Source of the DNA: Methanocaldococcus lauensis
Lineage (GTDB): Archaea > AGJL01 > Methanococci > Methanococcales > Methanocaldococcaceae
Direction of reading: 5' to 3'
Length of the DNA: 64,000 nucleotides
Assembly (NCBI RefSeq): GCF_902827225.1
Contig: NZ_LR792632.1
Coordinates: forward strand, 143,030-207,029
This document shows, one piece after another, positions 42,937-52,467 of this stretch. Each line of letters starts with the position of its first letter. The stretch's first letter is position 1. The position numbers and the translations under genes were made by a program. The notes under the pieces were generated by a model. The model saw only the letters and a program-made list of their open reading frames with translations. It did not search any database and had not been told where the DNA came from.

Positions 42937-43527
42937 TTACTCTTTTATCTCAGAAGATTCTATATTATCATCTTTATTATTTTTACTTAATTGTTTCTCT
43001 TCAACTTTTTTACTTTTTTTCTTTTTTTCTAACTTTTCTTTATCTAATTGAAACTCTTCTCCGATTTTTATTACATAATCAGCAATATTTTGCAAAGCCT
43101 TTGAAAATCCAGGCTCAGCCCCAATAACAATAACTTTTTTCCCCCTTTCTTTAGCTTTTCTAATTGCTGGAAGAAAATCAGCATCTCTTGTTACATAGGC
43201 AATAGTGTCAATATTTGGATTAAACACTAATTCGGTGGCATCAACAGCCATTTCAACATCTACATCTCCAGCAGATATTTTTGGTTCAAATCCTTGATTT
43301 ATAACGGCCTCTATTAACTTATCTGACGCATATTGATTTAAATAAACTCTACCTATAACAATGTCTCCAAATTCACTTAAAACTTCTCTAATTTTATCTA
43401 AATCAATGTTAAACTCTTTTCTGAGCATATTAGGTCCATCAATTAGTAAAGCGATTCTATGTTCTCCTCTTCTTTTTAAAGCCTTTTCGTAAATTTTACT
43501 TGTCAAATTCTCTAACTTTTTCCACAT
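42937..43527 (-). CDS. NYN-domain (LabA/DUF88-like PIN) putative nuclease
   Basis: A 196-residue protein whose first ~150 residues form a NYN/PIN fold. [13 protein letters not shown] carries the first acidic residue, [13 protein letters not shown] the second, and [20 protein letters not shown] the third set, so metal-dependent RNase activity is likely. A lysine-rich tail ([13 protein letters not shown]) may bind nucleic acid. It is convergent with the DUF106 gene. The substrate is unknown. Confidence 0.85.
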
Positions 43528-43680: not shown

Positions 43681-43977
43681 ATGTATAGTTGCCCATACTG
43701 TGGAGGAGATTGTATAAATGATGAGGCAGTTAATCTTTACATAACTATGGTTAAAAAATTTTTCAAATATCAAAATACAGAGAGTGACATAACATTTGAA
43801 AGATATCCAACTGTTGGCGAAGTTGGTGAATGCAAGAAAACTGGAGAAAAAATATATTTTTGTCCATACTGTAAAAAACCATTTAAGGCATACTATGAAC
43901 TTGAAAAGGTTACTATAAATTGTCCAAACTGTAATAAAACCTTATGTATCCCTCCAACAAATAGAACATTCTGCTAA
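43681..43977 (+). CDS. Small zinc-ribbon protein
   Basis: A 98-residue protein with three CxxC knuckles: SCPYCGGDC at the start, FCPYCKKPF in the middle and NCPNCNK near the end, plus a final Cys. It likely binds two zinc ions. No family function is known to me. GAGGTGAT ribosome site. Its stop codon overlaps the stop region of the convergent dph2 gene by 4 nt. Confidence 0.75.
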   Translation: MYSCPYCGGDCINDEAVNLYITMVKKFFKYQNTESDITFERYPTVGEVGECKKTGEKIYFCPYCKKPFKAYYELEKVTINCPNCNKTLCIPPTNRTFC

Positions 43978-44948
43978 TAAAAATCTTCCTTTTTGATTTC
44001 ATCAAATTTATAATTTAAAGAGTTATTTAAAAATAGTCTAAACTCCTCTGGCGTATATATAGGTTTTTTATATAGAATGTAATCATCTAAGACAATTCTT
44101 GGACATGCTACAATTATATAGCAATCTAAATCATAGAATAATATTTCTGGGGACACATTATCAACAATAATTGGGAGATAATTTATATTATTTTTTTCTA
44201 ATAGTTTTGTAATTTCATCAAAAACCTTTTTTCTAAACTGTCCCTTTTTTACTGATAAAACTACTCCAATCTTTTTTGGCTTATTTAACATTAACTTAGT
44301 TATTGCTGTAATTCTTTTCTTTATAAATTTATCAACCTCTTCCTTAGAAATTTTATCAAAACATTTGGAAATAGGATTGTATATATAAACTTCTTTTTGA
44401 TATTTGTATGCTAACATTAAAGGATGAAATCTCCCAGTTCCAACGAATAAAATAATGTCTTCATCTTTAATTTCTCCTCTGCAACCTAAGATTATATAAG
44501 GATTAAATTTTTTTAAAAGTTTTTTATATTGAACAGTCGTAGTTATAGCCACTTTTTTTCCTTCTAAATTATACTTATTTATAAAGTTTTCTATGTCATT
44601 TAGTATTTTATTCTCATCTTCTTTATCAAATATATGATATGTAGGAATAAATAAAGTTTTAATTTCTGGTTTAGCATATTTAAGTTCTTCATGTCCATAA
44701 TGAACAATTAAATCAACATCTAATTTTTTAACATAATCATCAATTAAATCACAGGCTCCAAAGCAAGAATTCCCCCATAAAAACAATTCAACATTTTTTC
44801 CTCTATTCTTAAAATATTTTTTAATTTTTTCAATCTCTTTTTCAACATATAATTTTAAGCCTTCTGGAGCTTGAAATACAATTTTAGGACATTTTTTATT
44901 TAAATTCTCTATCTCTTTTATAACTTTATTGGTCTCTAAGTCAAACAT
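43974..44948 (-). CDS. dph2: 2-(3-amino-3-carboxypropyl)histidine synthase Dph2 (diphthamide step 1)
   Basis: Noncanonical radical SAM enzyme that transfers the aminocarboxypropyl group to a histidine of aEF-2. The archaeal homodimer uses three cysteines, one per domain. Visible are GNSCFGACDL in domain 1, ILGCRGEI in domain 2 and IVACPRIVLDDY in domain 3, so the 4Fe-4S ligand set is complete. 324 residues from ATG 44948. The ORF extends three codons further without a better site. Confidence 0.93.
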   Translation of the reverse strand: MFDLETNKVIKEIENLNKKCPKIVFQAPEGLKLYVEKEIEKIKKYFKNRGKNVELFLWGNSCFGACDLIDDYVKKLDVDLIVHYGHEELKYAKPEIKTLFIPTYHIFDKEDENKILNDIENFINKYNLEGKKVAITTTVQYKKLLKKFNPYIILGCRGEIKDEDIILFVGTGRFHPLMLAYKYQKEVYIYNPISKCFDKISKEEVDKFIKKRITAITKLMLNKPKKIGVVLSVKKGQFRKKVFDEITKLLEKNNINYLPIIVDNVSPEILFYDLDCYIIVACPRIVLDDYILYKKPIYTPEEFRLFLNNSLNYKFDEIKKEDFY

Positions 44949-45001
44949 AAGTATCACACAAAAGATATTTAATGAATTAATTAAATTTAATTAATAAAAT
45001 G

Positions 45002-45099
45002 GTTAGAATCAGATATTATGGATAGAAATTAGTCATCTTTCCCATATAACTCAATATACTGCTCTTACTGTTAAAATCAGACCATAGTGAGATTGAAAT
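45002..45099 (+). CRISPR. Degenerate CRISPR remnant: two repeats, one 40-nt spacer
   Basis: Repeat A (45002-45029) starts GTTAGAATCAGA and ends AGAAAT. Repeat B (45070-45099) starts GTTAAAATCAGACC and ends ATTGAAAT. Repeat B has the length (30 nt), start and tail of methanogen CRISPR repeats (GTTAAAATCAGACC...ATTGAAAT as I remember them). Repeat A agrees at both ends but has a diverged, 2-nt shorter centre. The 40 nt between them (45030-45069) is a normal spacer length. No third repeat is seen on either side. The tail sequence puts the crRNA strand on the plus strand, facing the end of the type III-like cassette. Confidence 0.7.
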
Positions 45100-45214
45100 A
45101 ATTCTGTAACATAGATACTGACTATAATGCCAGCATATCCATCATTTAATTCAAAAGTAAGAATTTAAAGTAAAATGCAAAATAAAGATATAATTAGAAT
45201 ATATTCATTAATCC

Positions 45215-46102
45215 TCACTCACTTAATATACTAACACTGACTTTCCCAGCTCCTCTACTTTTTTGTCCCCCTAGTATTCTTATATTTTGTATTGCGGGAA
45301 TTAATATCTCCTCAATTAAAATTTTTGCTTTTTGTTCTTTATTCTTTTCTTCCCAATATTCAAGCCATTTGTCAATTACTACATCACTGATTTTTCTTGC
45401 ATCCCCAAATTTAATACCTTGCATTTCAAGAATGGGGGTTGATAGTACAACCTCAATTTTTCCTTTAAAAACAGAACCTGGTTTTACTTGCTCACCTTCA
45501 ACTTTTGCTCCCTTAGCAGCAGTTCCTGTCTTTCTATCAATTCTTATATTTGTCTGGTTTATTATATCAGATTCTCCCTCCATGATAAAATTTCCAACTC
45601 TTAAGAATCCCATAATTCCAGTAGCACCCATGAAATAACAAACTGGACATATTCCTAAATCACCAACATTTATCTTGTCTTCTTCAACTTTAATTTCACA
45701 ATGTCCAACATACTTTTTTCCTTCCATTTTTCCTCTATACATCTTTAAGTTTAACAATTCTTGTTCTGCTTTTGTTGGATTTGGAGAAGGTATGCAAGGT
45801 TTTAATACGTCTTTCTTATCATCAGGAATATTAAATTTCTCGGCAAATTTTTCAATATTATTAATAAATAATAACTCCAACTGATGTCTTAGAGCTCCTT
45901 TAAAACTACTTGCAGGTATTGCAGGTTTTCCTTTTATTTTAAATATTGGTGCTTTCTTTTCACTAAGTGGTGAGGGAGTTGCTCCAATATGTAAAAAGCT
46001 ATCTTCACAAACCTCTATTTTTATTGGAATCTCTAATACTTTAGCCCATCCTAAGGAGTTTTCTTTAAGTTCTATTTTTCTATCCCCCACATTTATTTTC
46101 AT
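45215..46102 (-). CDS. cas7: Cas7-family RAMP protein (Csm3/Cmr4-like)
   Basis: A 295-residue RRM-fold RAMP that in type III complexes forms the crRNA-binding backbone. Clear family blocks are AIPASSFKGALR (61-72), CPVCYFMGATG (152-162), IRIDRKTGTA (187-196) and the glycine-rich loop LGGQKSRGAGK (277-287). The motif where Csm3 carries its RNA-cleaving aspartate, (I/V)D(N/S)P, reads EKKAP (48-52) here, so cleavage may be lost. Start ATG 46102 is fixed by GGAGGT. It is the last gene of the cassette and overlaps the upstream one by a few bases. It is the only Cas7-like gene in the cassette. Confidence 0.87.
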   Translation of the reverse strand: MKINVGDRKIELKENSLGWAKVLEIPIKIEVCEDSFLHIGATPSPLSEKKAPIFKIKGKPAIPASSFKGALRHQLELLFINNIEKFAEKFNIPDDKKDVLKPCIPSPNPTKAEQELLNLKMYRGKMEGKKYVGHCEIKVEEDKINVGDLGICPVCYFMGATGIMGFLRVGNFIMEGESDIINQTNIRIDRKTGTAAKGAKVEGEQVKPGSVFKGKIEVVLSTPILEMQGIKFGDARKISDVVIDKWLEYWEEKNKEQKAKILIEEILIPAIQNIRILGGQKSRGAGKVSVSILSE

Positions 46103-46683
46103 TTTATTACCTCCCAATATTTTGTTAGTGAATTAAGTTTTCTAACAAAAAATGCTATTTTTTCTCTTGGAACTCCTGCATCATACAATTCTACAACATA
46201 ATTAAGAACTTTTTCTAATGCACGATTTCTTGGGAATTGAGATTTTTTTATTTTGTCCATAAAGTACTCTATAACAATTGATTTATCATATCTTTCAATA
46301 ACCTTGCCATAATCGTTCATATTTGGTAAATAGCATTCTACAAGTCCATACCATTCAAGAGTTTCAAATAATTGTTTTAAAAGATGTTGTTTATTATCGT
46401 ATGCGTTTATTAGCCATTTTGCTCTTTTTTCTAATTCATCAATTTTTGTTTTCCTCCAATCATCAGCATTTTGCTCATTATATTTTATTTGATTAATTCT
46501 ATCTTGAATCATTTTTTCGTATTCGTCTTTTTTACCATTTTTGAATAGTTCTCCAAGTTTTTTCCAATCATTTTCCTCAAAAAGTTTGGGAATATGTTCT
46601 TTTTTATGTGTATCATAAGGACTATCAAATATATCCCTATCATTCAAAACTTTCTTAAAGATTTCATCCATTTTACTCATCAT
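46099..46683 (-). CDS. All-helical protein of the type III-like cassette (candidate Cas11 small subunit)
   Basis: A 194-residue protein without detectable catalytic motifs, predicted to be almost wholly alpha-helical and charged (DEIFKKVLNDRD, RINQIKYNEQNADDW, FVRKLNSLTKYWEVIK). Its place between the Cas5-like and Cas7-like genes, its size and its helical nature suggest the small (Cas11/Csm2/Cmr5-type) subunit, although it is longer than most. This is inference from context; sequence alone does not prove it. GGGAGGGG ribosome site; 11-nt overlap with the upstream gene. Confidence 0.55.
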   Translation of the reverse strand: MMSKMDEIFKKVLNDRDIFDSPYDTHKKEHIPKLFEENDWKKLGELFKNGKKDEYEKMIQDRINQIKYNEQNADDWRKTKIDELEKRAKWLINAYDNKQHLLKQLFETLEWYGLVECYLPNMNDYGKVIERYDKSIVIEYFMDKIKKSQFPRNRALEKVLNYVVELYDAGVPREKIAFFVRKLNSLTKYWEVIK

Positions 46684-47317
46684 AATACGTCCCCTCCCTA
46701 TCTTTTAATAAGACATCTGGAGCTTTAACTAAACTTCCAGGGAATAATGCTCTTTTATAAACTCCACATACAAAATTCTTTGGCTTAAACAAATAACCAT
46801 ATATTGGGGAAATTATTTCAATTCCAAAATCTATGGCTTCATCCTCAAATAATTTAACATTTAGAAATCCTTGTTTTATTTCTGATTCAATTTCTTTAAC
46901 ATCTACAATTTTTGTCCATCCAAATCCCCTGCTTTTCAATGCTCCCATTTGAAATTCAACACTTTCCAATATCTCCTTATTTAATCCTTTTTCTTCTGCT
47001 TTTTTGATTGGAATATATACTTTTGCTTTAATTTTATCTCCATTCTTTGGTTTCAAATATTCGGTAAATATTGGCAACTTAGAAGTTTCAAAAACTCTAT
47101 CTCTAACTGAATAAACAAATTCATCAAACTCGTAACTACCTTTCTCAAATATTCCCACTGCAGGAACTTCTACACCAAAATAGTGTTTTATCGCCCCCTC
47201 AATTGTAGATGAGGGTATTAATTCTTGACAAGGCCTATAAACTCCCCCTTTAATTCTCTCACCAATAATAATAGAATCAATTTCGAGATATAATTCAAGA
47301 AGTTTTATTTTATTCAT
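46673..47317 (-). CDS. cas5: Cas5-group RAMP protein (Csm4/Cmr3-like)
   Basis: A 214-residue RAMP. After the first strand LELYLEIDSIIIGE comes YRPCQELIPSSTIEGAIKHY, the RAMP helix region, and the glycine-rich RNA-binding loop MGALKSRGFGW (124-134). In type III complexes this group caps the crRNA 5' tag and contacts Cas10, which fits its place next to the Cas10-like gene. It is shorter than most Csm4 and Cmr3 proteins (about 300). AGGGGAT ribosome site; overlaps the Cas10-like gene by 8 nt. Confidence 0.75.
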   Translation of the reverse strand: MNKIKLLELYLEIDSIIIGERIKGGVYRPCQELIPSSTIEGAIKHYFGVEVPAVGIFEKGSYEFDEFVYSVRDRVFETSKLPIFTEYLKPKNGDKIKAKVYIPIKKAEEKGLNKEILESVEFQMGALKSRGFGWTKIVDVKEIESEIKQGFLNVKLFEDEAIDFGIEIISPIYGYLFKPKNFVCGVYKRALFPGSLVKAPDVLLKDREGTYYDE

Positions 47318-49586
47318 TGGTATCCCCTATGATCCTATATAGATTCAAAATCTTAGAAGGAGCTATATTCTCTGAAAATAATTTATGAACTTCAGGATAT
47401 TTCTTTCTATTATTGAAAATTTCTATTGTTAGGTATATTTCAGAATTCAATGAATTATCTAACTGAACGAGTTTGTATAAGAAAGAACTTGATTCAATAT
47501 CATTGATTACTTTAAGTATCTTATAAACATCATCTTTTGTATATCTCTCAATAAATGCGTTATGTTTTCTTATATTTAGGAAACTTTTTTCTTCTTTTTC
47601 AAAAAATCTCCAATGTTCTCTAATTGGATATTTTATATTTGCAATGCTTAAAGATAGACAAATTGGACAACAATCATCTCCCTTAACATCTGGGAAATAT
47701 TTATTAAAAACTTCTAAATATGTTTCAATAATTTCCTTAGTCAATTTAGGAGAATATTTAAATACTCCCAATTCATTATAATCTGATATTGGCTTTTTAA
47801 TATCATCTCTATCTTCAAATTTTTTCCAAAACTCTTTTAACATTTCTTCATAATCTTTATTAAAGTCAATTTGTGGTGCTAATGGTCTAAATTCATCTAA
47901 AGTCTTCTTTATATAATAATTAGGGTTGTTTATTTTTTCCTTTAAAAGTTTTAATTTATTTTCTTGTGATTCTAATTTTTTAATTTTCTTTTTAAGATTT
48001 TTAAGTTTATTTTTAAGATTTTTAATTTCTTGAGACAATTCGTTTAGTCTATTAGTTACTTCTTCAGTTCTACAACCTTTTTTAACTTTATTAATTAACA
48101 TTTTTTGCTCTTTCTCTTTTTCCTTTAATTCATTTTGTTTTTCCTCAACTTTATCTATTTCCGATTTAATTGAATAATATCTTTTATTTACATCATCAAA
48201 AATTTTTGGATATATCCACTCAATATAATCTTCAAACGCTTTTATTAACCATTCTTCTAATTTTCTTTGGTCTATTGAAAACTTAAACCAACCAACCTTA
48301 ACTCCTTCTTTTTCCCATATTTTTGCATATTCTTCAAATGGATCCCCCATATTTCTAATTTCCCAACATTTATCACATATCCATTCTTTAATATTTTCTT
48401 TTTCTCGTTCTATACCTTTTCTTTGCTGACATATATCACAGATTGGAGGATTTAATTCATTAGGCATATCTGGTAAAAGATATTTCTTATAAATTTTGGC
48501 ATCTATATCATTTGCATTTGATTTTCTCATTTTATGTATTTTTTTATCTAACGTTGATTCAAGCAACTTTAACTTTGATATAATTTCATCCACTTCAATA
48601 TAAAATCCATAATCCAAAAATTTATTAAATATTTCATTTAAATCTTGATTTAATGGTAAAAACAACATAACAAAATCTGATGTAGCAAATAATACTTCAT
48701 CCTTAAAATTATTTGTGAGATGTTCTATAAGTTCTTTTCTTTTTTTTACTAAGTTTATGTCCTGTAATCTAACAAACGAATGAGGAAACTTAATCCAACA
48801 TTTTACTAACCTCCATTCCCATTTAGTTTCAGCATCATTAATTGTATTAACTTTTTTATCTTCATATTCAACTGTCATCGAGCCATCAGATTCTATATTA
48901 AAATTTGTATTTCTTTTTAAAATACGATATATTTTACCAACTAATTCAATATGGGTATAAAGAGAAGTTATATTTCTTAAAATACTTTTATCTTCTGGAG
49001 TTAAAAGAAGATTCTCTTTATATTTGTTTAAAAATTCCTCTCCAGCTATACAATTGTCAATTTCATTAAATACGGTTTTTAAATCATTAATACTCCTAAA
49101 TTTAGCCCAGTATTTTCCAGTTTTTTCCATATTAATATAGAATTTAGTATTCCAAAGTTTATAAATCCCTTTATACTCTTTATCTTTTTTATCTGAATAA
49201 GAATCTCCAAATAAATCATTATATTTAAGTTTTATATTGCTTAATTCTTCGAATTCATTATTATCGCTAATTGCTCTTGAGATAGACGAAGCTATGTGAT
49301 CTGCGAGGATTAATAAAAATACATCATATCTATATTTTTCAGGTATATCATCCCATTCTTTTATATCCTTATATACTTTAATTTCATGGTGATATTGTCC
49401 CCACCATGATGGTGATGATGGCTTAGTAAAAGAATAACCATTATTCTGTAATTCCTGAAAGTTAAAATCAATAAAACAATGGCTTTTCCAAGATTTTCCA
49501 ATAATTTTCTTAATTTCGTCCTTAACTTTATCATCAACAAGCTTTCCAATATCATGCAATTCTGGAATGAATTCTTTGTCTGTCAT
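47310..49586 (-). CDS. cas10: Cas10-like large subunit with HD domain, without a recognisable GGDD cyclase motif
   Basis: A 758-residue protein (from ATG 49586, GGGGGG site). Order: N-terminal HD nuclease domain with ELHDIGK (H11-D12), YHHE (H66-H67) and LADHIASS (D96-H97); a palm-like region with EVLFATSDFVMLFLP (297-311); a zinc finger CDIC (383, 386)...CDKC (404, 407); a ~90-residue coiled coil (about 465-555) inserted in the second palm region; then KGDDCCPIC (635-643) and a helical end. No GGDDF appears, so cyclic-oligoadenylate synthesis is unlikely, while HD DNase activity looks intact. It resembles derived type III systems such as III-C or III-F. First gene of the four-gene cassette. 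Confidence 0.82.
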   Translation of the reverse strand: MTDKEFIPELHDIGKLVDDKVKDEIKKIIGKSWKSHCFIDFNFQELQNNGYSFTKPSSPSWWGQYHHEIKVYKDIKEWDDIPEKYRYDVFLLILADHIASSISRAISDNNEFEELSNIKLKYNDLFGDSYSDKKDKEYKGIYKLWNTKFYINMEKTGKYWAKFRSINDLKTVFNEIDNCIAGEEFLNKYKENLLLTPEDKSILRNITSLYTHIELVGKIYRILKRNTNFNIESDGSMTVEYEDKKVNTINDAETKWEWRLVKCWIKFPHSFVRLQDINLVKKRKELIEHLTNNFKDEVLFATSDFVMLFLPLNQDLNEIFNKFLDYGFYIEVDEIISKLKLLESTLDKKIHKMRKSNANDIDAKIYKKYLLPDMPNELNPPICDICQQRKGIEREKENIKEWICDKCWEIRNMGDPFEEYAKIWEKEGVKVGWFKFSIDQRKLEEWLIKAFEDYIEWIYPKIFDDVNKRYYSIKSEIDKVEEKQNELKEKEKEQKMLINKVKKGCRTEEVTNRLNELSQEIKNLKNKLKNLKKKIKKLESQENKLKLLKEKINNPNYYIKKTLDEFRPLAPQIDFNKDYEEMLKEFWKKFEDRDDIKKPISDYNELGVFKYSPKLTKEIIETYLEVFNKYFPDVKGDDCCPICLSLSIANIKYPIREHWRFFEKEEKSFLNIRKHNAFIERYTKDDVYKILKVINDIESSSFLYKLVQLDNSLNSEIYLTIEIFNNRKKYPEVHKLFSENIAPSKILNLYRIIGDTNE

Positions 49587-49968
49587 ATTCCCCCCACAAG
49601 TACTTAGCAAATGCAGTAAATTCCTATAATATTATTATTTTTTATTTTTATTTATATATCTTTGTATATTTTTTTATTTTTATTTTTTATACCTTAGTTT
49701 TTATCAAATGAGTAAATATATGGATTTAACAATAAAGATGATTCATTGTATATTATTGATACTGAAAGTGTTAGGCATGTTAATAGTTATTCAACCCCTT
49801 AAATTTATTATAAATATGAGTATGCTAAATAACATAACATAATAACAAAGTTACATAATATGATAACTTCAAAATAATAGCAAATATTTAAATCTTTGTT
49901 GAATATTGGAGTGGATAATCCATAACCTAAAATTTTAGTTTTTGATTATAAAACCTTTGGTGACTCAA
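49587..49968. promoter_or_regulatory. 382-nt intergenic region with divergent promoters (Cas10-like cassette / cobQ)
   Basis: No gene or CRISPR repeat is visible. For the minus-strand cassette, GATATATAAAT (complement of about 49650-49662) is a plausible box A some 65 nt before the ATG, within long A/T runs. For cobQ, AAATATTTAAATC near 49883-49895 is a plausible box A about 75 nt before its start. The middle part holds ordinary AT-rich sequence and no palindrome that I could find. No cobalamin riboswitch is seen before cobQ. Confidence 0.4.
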
Positions 49969-51444
49969 ATGGCAAAGTTTATAATGGTAGTTGGAACATC
50001 ATCCAACAGTGGAAAAACTACAATAGCTGCAGGATTGTGTAGGCTTTTAGCAAATAAAGGTTATAAAGTAGCCCCATTTAAATCTCAAAATATGAGTTTA
50101 AATTCAAGAGTAACAAAAGAAGATGGAGAAATTGCAATGGCTCAATATACACAAAGTTTAGCATCCAGAGTAGAACCATCTGTTCATTTTAATCCAATAC
50201 TATTAAAACCAAAAGGAAATTTTATTTCACAGGTTATAGTTCATGGAAAGGTTTATAAAGATATGGATTATAACGAATATAGAAGAAATAAAAATTTCTT
50301 TTTGAAAAAAATTAAAGAAAGTTTGGAAATTCTAAATAAGGAGTATGACTATGTTGTTATGGAAGGTGCAGGAAGTTGCTGTGAAATAAATTTATTAAAG
50401 GATGATATAGCAAATCTAAGAATTGCAGAAATGGTTAATGCTAATGCAATTTTAGTTGCAGACATTGATAGAGGAGGAGTTTTCGCCTCAATCTATGGAA
50501 CTATAAAACTACTCCCAAAAAAATGGAGAAATCTTATTAAAGGTATTATAATAAATAAATTTAGGGGAAATATTGATGTTTTAAAAGATGGAATTGAGAA
50601 GATTGAAGAATTAACGGGAATTCCAGTTTTAGGCGTTATGCCTTATGATGAAAATCTTGTATTACCAGAGGAAGATAGTCAGGCATTACAAAACATAAGA
50701 AGTTTTGGAAATGCTAAGAGTGGAGTTGAAGTTAATGTTGTTAGATTTTCAAAAATATCTAATTTTACTGACTTAGACCCTTTAAGATACGACGCATTAA
50801 TAAAATTTATTGACTTCAAAGATGATATTTCTGGGGATATTTTAATTCTCCCAGGATCAAGAAGTTCAACGAAAGAGGCATATTATTTAAAAGAAAATAA
50901 TTTTGATGAAAAGATTTTAGAATTTTTAAAAGATGGTGGAATAGTTATTGGAATATGTGGAGGCTATCAAGTTTTAGGGAAAAAACTCATTGATAAAGAT
51001 TTTAAAGAGTCAGATATTGGAAGTATCGAAGGTTTAAATATTTTTGACGCTAAAACATACTTTGGAAATGACAAGGTCGTTAAAAACTCTTATGGTTATT
51101 TGGATATAGATGATAAAACATTTAAAGTTTGTGGTTATGAGATTCACGAAGGAATTACATACAGTAAAGAAAAACCATTAATAAAAATCGAAAGAGGTTT
51201 TGGAAACTGTGGTAATGGATTTGATGGCTCAATTAAAAAAATTGGTGATGGTTTAGTTATAGGAACTTACTTCCATGGAATTTTTGAAAATTGTGAATTT
51301 AGAAATTACATTATTAATAAAATTAGAGAGAAAAAAGGTTTAGAGAAAATTGAAGGAGATTTATATAAAGATAGCATAGAAAAAAGTTTAAACTACTTTG
51401 CCAAAGTTTTAGAAAAAAATGTGGATTTATCTCAAATAATTTAG
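49969..51444 (+). CDS. cobQ: Cobyric acid synthase
   Basis: Glutamine-dependent amidotransferase that amidates four carboxylates of adenosylcobyrinate a,c-diamide, in archaeal cobamide synthesis. The 491-residue protein has an N-terminal DRTG-type P-loop domain ([20 protein letters not shown], then [14 protein letters not shown]) and a C-terminal class I glutaminase-like domain with the nucleophile in [11 protein letters not shown] and the His in YFHGIFEN. Start ATG 49969 has a GGTGAC site; upstream frame residues are rejected. Methanogens need this pathway for Mtr corrinoids. Confidence 0.95.
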
Positions 51445-51462: not shown

Positions 51463-52467
51463 ATGATCAATTTAAGAGAATTAAAAAAATATGCAAATCC
51501 ATTTTTTTTAACAATAAGAAAGGACAAAATTTTAGTCAATAATAAAAGAATGGCAAGATTATCAAGAACTAAAATGAACAAAATTGAGGAGGATTTTGGA
51601 ATTCCAGTAATTTATTCAAAAACTTATGAATATGTCTCTACAAAAGTTGGGAGATTTATCAATAGGCATAAGATTATATCCCCAAGAGATGTAATTATTG
51701 TTGGGCTTAGTGGAGGTAAAGATAGTTTATTATTATTACATCTTTTAGAAGTTTATAGAAGGAAGTATGGAATAAAGTTAATAGCGGTTACTGTTGATGT
51801 CAATATAGGTGGAGTGAGACCTTGGAAAGAAGATAGTGAGGGGGTTAAATTAATAAAACACCACTGTGAAATGCTAAATATTCCTCATCTATTGTTAAAA
51901 AGTGATTTAGATGTAGTTGAACTCTCAGAAATTTTAACAAAAACTTCTAAAGGGATGGAATTTTCTCCTTGCTTTTCTTGTTCTGTAATTAAAAGGCATT
52001 TATTAGGAAAATTAGCAAAAGAAATCTCTGAAAAAGAAAATATTCCTTACGAGAAAGTTAAAATAGCTTATGGACATAATTTAGATGATAATTCAGATAC
52101 AATTTTAGCAAATATCTTTAAAGGAGAGAGATTAAAGTTTATGAGACCTTTAACAAAATTTAAGAGTAATGTAGTTAATTATAAAGATTTAAAGATTCAG
52201 TTAGAGGAATGTATAATAATTAGACCCATGCTTCCAGTATTGGAGGAGGATATAATAAAGGCTCTTGAGGAGTGTAATATAGAGTATTACAAAGATAAAG
52301 ATATTTGCCCATATAGTAGAGATAGAGGAGATAGCATTAGGAGAAGATGTCACGAGATTTTAGAAAAATTGGAAGAAGAGATTCCAAATATTAGAGAGAT
52401 GGTAGTAAGTTCTGCAATAAAAACAGTTGAATTTTATAGTAAAAATCCTTACAACATTGAGGAATAA
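51463..52467 (+). CDS. TtcA/TtuA-family tRNA thiolation enzyme (PP-loop ATPase)
   Basis: A 334-residue PP-loop protein with SGGKDS (83-88), YGHNLDD and three likely 4Fe-4S ligands: C170 and C173 (PCFSC) and C282 (DICPYS). This is the set found in TtcA-like thiouridine/thiocytidine synthetases. The first ~70 residues have no zinc finger, unlike typical TtuA/Ncs6. It probably thiolates a tRNA base; which one cannot be told. It begins 18 nt after cobQ with AGAGGGAT and may be co-transcribed. Confidence 0.85.
   Translation: MINLRELKKYANPFFLTIRKDKILVNNKRMARLSRTKMNKIEEDFGIPVIYSKTYEYVSTKVGRFINRHKIISPRDVIIVGLSGGKDSLLLLHLLEVYRRKYGIKLIAVTVDVNIGGVRPWKEDSEGVKLIKHHCEMLNIPHLLLKSDLDVVELSEILTKTSKGMEFSPCFSCSVIKRHLLGKLAKEISEKENIPYEKVKIAYGHNLDDNSDTILANIFKGERLKFMRPLTKFKSNVVNYKDLKIQLEECIIIRPMLPVLEEDIIKALEECNIEYYKDKDICPYSRDRGDSIRRRCHEILEKLEEEIPNIREMVVSSAIKTVEFYSKNPYNIEE

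Follow-up and report, generated by a model that had tools for sequence, protein, structure and literature searches.

A compact four-gene cassette on the minus strand, lying between dph2 and cobQ in a Methanocaldococcus genome, raises the question of what kind of CRISPR effector it encodes and from where such an effector would obtain its guides. Positions without a prefix refer to the window, i.e., the whole 64,000-nucleotide stretch of DNA that was analysed.

Layout and Subtype of the Cassette

The cassette was found to have the order cas10-cas5-cas11-cas7 over positions 45215-49586, with overlaps of 8, 11, and 4 nt in that order in the ORF list (Table 1). The original prediction, made from the sequence alone, had described a Cas10-like HD protein, a Cas5-group protein, a small helical protein and a Cas7-like protein. 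Its gene calls and coordinates were all correct, and the four identities were borne out by PADLOC III-F profile matches for cas10f (Cas10a|Cas10f, 8e-176), cas5f (Cas5_IIIf, 2.8e-88), cas11f (Cas11f, 9.8e-64), and cas7f (Cas7_IIIf, 9.2e-107). With Pfam and NCBIfam alone the signal was weak, as Cas7 matched just the RAMP family and Cas10 gave nothing beyond coiled-coil noise; it was PADLOC that resolved all four. Judged by these profiles, the matches are beyond chance and the cassette is of subtype III-F, a rare kind which already has a name, the host being new and the subtype known. The type locus of III-F, Tlet_0097-Tlet_0100 of Thermotoga lettingae, has four genes (PMC8036902), and III-F loci are mostly array-less (PMC12669027). 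The cassette had been proposed to be a stand-alone variant. It is a stand-alone effector, but not a separate variant, as four genes and the lack of an array are normal for III-F.

No CRISPR proteins were detected among the ten nearest neighbour genes tested, no Cas1 or Cas6 was found within the window and no CARF effector was found in the III-F locus, in agreement with the earlier description of a cassette without cas1, cas2, cas6 or a CARF effector, flanked by dph2 and cobQ. By eye, a candidate TATA box (ATATATAA) was read upstream of cas10f, and GGGGGG precedes its ATG. The G+C content of the cassette (27.5%) is similar to that of the window (28.6%). A gene for an NYN-domain nuclease (42937-43527) lies near the cassette and is probably unrelated to it, being on the conserved dph2 side. 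A PP-loop (TtcA-like) gene is located less than about 10 kb from III-F in both Methanocaldococcus (51463-52467) and Methanothermococcus (L008:5147-6157); the intervening genes differ, and the proximity may reflect a common neighbourhood of insertion or be coincidental.

Table 1. Features of the III-F cassette, its flanks and the two composite operons among its relatives.
Feature	Position	Strand	Remarks
cas10f	47310..49586	-	ATG at 49586, 758 aa; alternative TTG start 49610
cas5f	46673..47317	-	214 aa
cas11f, small subunit	46099..46683	-	194 aa
cas7f, backbone RAMP	45215..46102	-	295 aa from ATG; alternative TTG start 46117
TATA-box-like ATATATAA, candidate	49652..49659	-	upstream of cas10f; read by eye
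CRISPR repeat R1 GTTAGAATCAGATATTATGGATAGAAAT, degenerate	45002..45029	+	28 nt, several changes
Mini-array spacer	45030..45069	+	40 nt; no target found
CRISPR repeat R2 GTTAAAATCAGACCATAGTGAGATTGAAAT	45070..45099	+	only repeat of its kind in the genome
dph2, diphthamide synthase (PF01866)	43974-44957		flank
cobQ, CobQ/CbiP-type enzyme (PF07685, PF01656)	49942-51444		flank
I-A/III-F operons	L018:7570-21258; L019:7645-21971		cas3, cas3-HD, III-F genes, cas8a, cas7, cas5, cas4/cas6, cas1, then CRISPR array

Insertion between dph2 and cobQ

The cassette is a lineage-specific insertion that separates dph2 from cobQ by a block of about 5.0 kb (44963..49955, about 4993 bp). Empty sites were identified in G005, which belongs to the same species, and in G009, a close relative, where the dph2-cobQ gap is 74 and 64 bp, respectively, and where the flanking DNA is 95–98% identical to the window on both sides. 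The cassette is also absent from three other Methanocaldococcus genomes in which dph2 was found beside cobQ (G001, G004, and G006), where 87 to 748 bp separate the two genes. The original prediction had suggested a search for the same four-gene order in other members of the genus, and it was found in none of these five. Cas10f was detected in 2 of the 36 genomes of the phylum group, namely the source genome and one Methanothermococcus. No integrase or target duplication was seen at the insertion.

Predicted Catalytic Sites

It has been reported that cyclase motifs are missing from all III-F systems, with the HD domain generally present (PMC11229360). This is also the case here. The HD motif ELHD.GKL (ELHDIGKL in the cassette) is invariant at H11-D12 across seven aligned Cas10f sequences, while neither GGDD nor any of its listed variants occurs in any of the seven, which upholds the earlier description of an HD-positive, cyclase-less type III effector. 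Cas10f further possesses a zinc finger (CxxC...CxxC), palm-like strands lacking GGDD and ~110 conserved residues in its C-terminal region. An ~85-residue coiled-coil insertion (residues ~465-565) is present only in the two Methanococcales copies and is missing in the five other homologues; the DNA coding for it contains a 21-bp tandem repeat (47977-48028). Against PDB profiles Cas10f matches a III-D Cas10 (8bmw_K, E 4.5e-4). No useful alignment was obtained with hhalign against individual Cas10 sequences. The AlphaFold model of Cas10f, built from a seven-sequence input, has a pLDDT of only 56.7 and its best fold matches, Csm1/Cas10 chains, are supportive only; the state of the palm domain therefore rests on sequence. 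Going by the order of secondary-structure elements in this model, a plain strand (LGVFKYSP, residues ~604-611) appears to stand where the GGDD hairpin would be expected. No Cas10f relatives were found in a search of viral contigs.

The single Cas7 of the cassette lacks the slicer aspartate. The GGxDN loop which carries this residue in Csm3 is an invariant EKK in all five Cas7f sequences aligned, and the catalytic Asp of Csm3 aligns opposite a Cas7f Lys both in the PDB profile alignment and in comparison with the Csm3 of the same genome. The AlphaFold model of Cas7f is good (pLDDT 79.9) and has Csm3 chains of III-A complexes as its top structural matches. Cas5f (five sequences) and Cas11f were also aligned with their homologues. 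As Cas7f has Lys in place of Asp and Cas10f is without GGDD, the III-F complex probably neither slices RNA nor signals through cyclic oligoadenylates, and the HD nuclease is probably its sole apparent catalytic site.

Relatives of the Cassette

When one genome was scanned for each species, seven related loci were identified, in Methanothermococcus, Archaeoglobales, Thermococcus, Thermoplasmata, two WOR-3 bacteria and one unclassified bacterium. The III-F genes keep the same order in every relative whose contig is long enough, and alignments of the four proteins with homologues from other phyla gave identities of 42–71% over nearly the full length. In the unclassified bacterium (L018) and one WOR-3 bacterium (L019) the III-F genes are embedded in a type I-A operon that also encodes Cas6 and Cas1 and ends in a long array (Table 1). 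No cas genes or array were seen near the other WOR-3 copy (L016) or the archaeal III-F copies, and a simple search found no arrays near the stand-alone loci (L008, L015, L016, L017, and L020), several of which are close to a contig end.

The region upstream of the Methanothermococcus III-F genes (L008:7336-14775) encodes a PLD/helicase protein together with a large methylase-like protein, which suggests a restriction or defence island. Directly downstream of the stand-alone WOR-3 copy (L016:14090-15996) lie an ORF for a short cysteine-containing peptide and a radical-SAM protein, resembling a modified-peptide cluster.

Guide Supply in the Source Genome

Only one Cas1 (C1:608380) and one Cas6 (C1:600404) were found genome-wide, and both belong to a type I-D operon (C1:600-609 kb), in which PADLOC identified cas6, a CARF regulator, cas10d, cas7d, cas5d, cas3d, cas4, cas1, and cas2, with an array directly after it. 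The dominant host repeat is GTCTAAAATCAGACCCCTAAGGGGATGGAAAT, and allowing up to three mismatches the I-D repeat core is present in at least 140 copies over at least eight places. A host array at G000:C1:440000-441500 (L069) carries a repeat variant, TCTAAAATCAGACCCTAAGGGGATGGAAAT, which is one base shorter than the dominant I-D repeat. The long array nearest to the cassette lies about 64 kb away (C1:123.4-124.3 kb); as had been anticipated, neither a cas6/cas1 operon nor a large array is located directly outside the window. The genome also encodes a complete III-A operon (G000:C1:1174221-1184690; L067:2221-12690) with a GGDD Cas10, Csm2-5, two CARF-HEPN proteins, and Csx20, its Cas10 carrying SGGDD and being cyclase-competent. 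No Cas6 or array belonging to this operon was found, and therefore a second type III complex in the genome already depends on guides from elsewhere.

The earlier statement that no long array accompanies the cassette is correct, but a mini-array of two repeats and one spacer (45002-45099) had been overlooked. It lies ~115 bp past the cas7 stop, within the inserted block. R2 is an exact match to the Methanocaldococcus repeat pattern TTAAAATCAGACCN8ATNGAAAT; this pattern has one copy in the source genome and none in the reversed control, and it also fits long arrays in five other genomes of the genus. Shuffles of the window gave an expectation of 0.05 matches to the R2 pattern, even allowing three mismatches. 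A joint pattern for the two repeats, with an expectation of zero, was devised after the repeats had been viewed and is thus not an independent test. Searches of phages, Methanococcales genomes and viral contigs gave no match to the spacer, and the mini-array is read as a relic which is possibly still usable. The handles of the I-D repeat (ATGGAAAT) and the mini-array (ATTGAAAT) differ by one base, making it plausible from sequence that I-D crRNAs could be loaded by the III-F complex. The proposal that the cassette must borrow its crRNAs can accordingly be kept in part: arrays exist elsewhere in the genome and borrowing is likely, but with a one-spacer mini-array adjoining the cassette "must" is too strong.

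Proposed Function and Alternatives

The cassette is probably an HD-only III-F interference module that needs no PAM and receives I-D crRNAs in trans. According to this model, the single Cas6 of the genome would generate crRNAs from the I-D arrays, possibly with a contribution from the adjacent one-spacer mini-array, and on these crRNAs Cas7f, Cas11f, and Cas5f would form a Csm-like filament. Pairing of the crRNA with an invader transcript (or transcribed DNA) would activate Cas10f, the HD domain of which would then cut the invader DNA; cleavage of a DNA target has been predicted for III-F (PMC8036902). There would be no slicing of target RNA by Cas7f to switch the complex off and no cyclic oligoadenylate alarm, and III-F would back up type I-D without depending on a PAM. 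The two I-A/III-F operons represent the same type I partnership in cis, which supports guide sharing. Nine genomes, among them seven III-F carriers, were checked; each has Cas1, and most have a PF01881-type Cas6. Both proteins are common in thermophilic archaea, and for this reason their co-occurrence with III-F is weak evidence.

The same inserted block holds the mini-array, with a repeat unlike those of the host, and it could be supposed that III-F is served mainly by this array rather than by the I-D arrays. Such an arrangement is unlikely given a single spacer for which no target was found, a degenerate 28-nt first repeat and a relic-like appearance, and as the mini-array also lacks a local Cas6 or Cas1, Cas6 would still act in trans. 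The degenerate repeats beside the cassette, together with its absence from close relatives, could instead mark a recently acquired, non-functional passenger which is decaying. However, the four reading frames are uninterrupted and overlap at their starts and stops, the catalytic HD residues are kept, and the proteins align nearly full length with their 42–71% identical homologues from other phyla, so that decay seems improbable.

It is very unlikely that the cassette belongs to the related subtype III-H, or is an intermediate, rather than III-F. III-H is a distant relative of III-F, found in various archaea without an active palm or adaptation genes (PMC12669027), and the PADLOC release used dates from 2023, with no III-H model among its matches; in III-H, however, Cas11 replaces the C-terminal domain of Cas10, while here the ~110-residue C-terminal region is kept and Cas11f is encoded separately, with a match to the III-F model of 1e-63. 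The original prediction had also allowed for a different use of the complex, which could be, e.g., regulation or guide-free defence. There are no local guides beyond the mini-array, and neither signalling nor RNA slicing is expected, but evidence for another role was not found, and homologues inside complete I-A operons with arrays indicate that the family works with CRISPR immunity, leaving such a use the most improbable of the readings considered. Trans feeding by I-D crRNAs is thus the reading retained. A more tentative extension, which may well not hold, is that III-F is a mobile plug-in which has repeatedly joined type I systems and reused their guides, in trans with I-D and in cis with I-A in two bacteria. 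If true, such a plug-in would interfere with DNA through its HD domain alone and independently of a PAM, with neither RNA slicing nor an alarm signal.

Comparison with Known Systems

III-F was still experimentally unstudied as of 2020 (PMC7694759), and no experimental study of it was found in the literature searched. This analysis adds an empty site, a mini-array, a genome-wide inventory of guides and two cis-composite I-A/III-F operons. The locus offers a tidy test case for an HD-only type III complex borrowing type I guides, and for what that complex cuts, with a same-species empty site, a small genome, one Cas6, one dominant repeat and active-looking I-D and III-A systems.

By its published description, III-F shares with the cassette the four effector genes, an HD-positive but cyclase-less Cas10, a single Cas7 and no CARF effector, along with the usual absence of an array, Cas6, and adaptation genes. 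The Cas10f coiled-coil insertion, confined to the Methanococcales copies, and the one-spacer mini-array are peculiar to the cassette. III-A (Csm), including the copy in the same genome (C1:1174-1185 kb), has a similar Csm-like Cas7 fold and HD-Cas10, and that copy likewise needs crRNA from elsewhere. In contrast to the cassette, III-A has GGDD, an Asp-bearing Csm3, Csm4/Csm5, Csx1/Csm6-type CARF-HEPN effectors, and Csx20. Assignment of the cassette to III-A was ruled out, as it has no Csm4, Csm5 or active cyclase, these being in the separate III-A operon.

III-G and III-H share with the cassette an inactive palm, an active HD domain, a Cas7 without the catalytic Asp and no adaptation genes. 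For III-G a supply of crRNA in trans has been proposed (PMC12669027), as for the cassette, but III-G differs in having Csx26 and two Cas7 proteins, and III-H probably in having Cas11 in place of the Cas10 C-terminus. The III-B system of Marinomonas uses I-F crRNAs and a type I Cas6, backing up type I against PAM escape (PMC5576922). It slices RNA and its partner is I-F, and guide sharing is experimental there but inferred for the III-F cassette (PMC5576922); common to both is an acquired type III module using type I guides and Cas6 as a PAM-free back-up.
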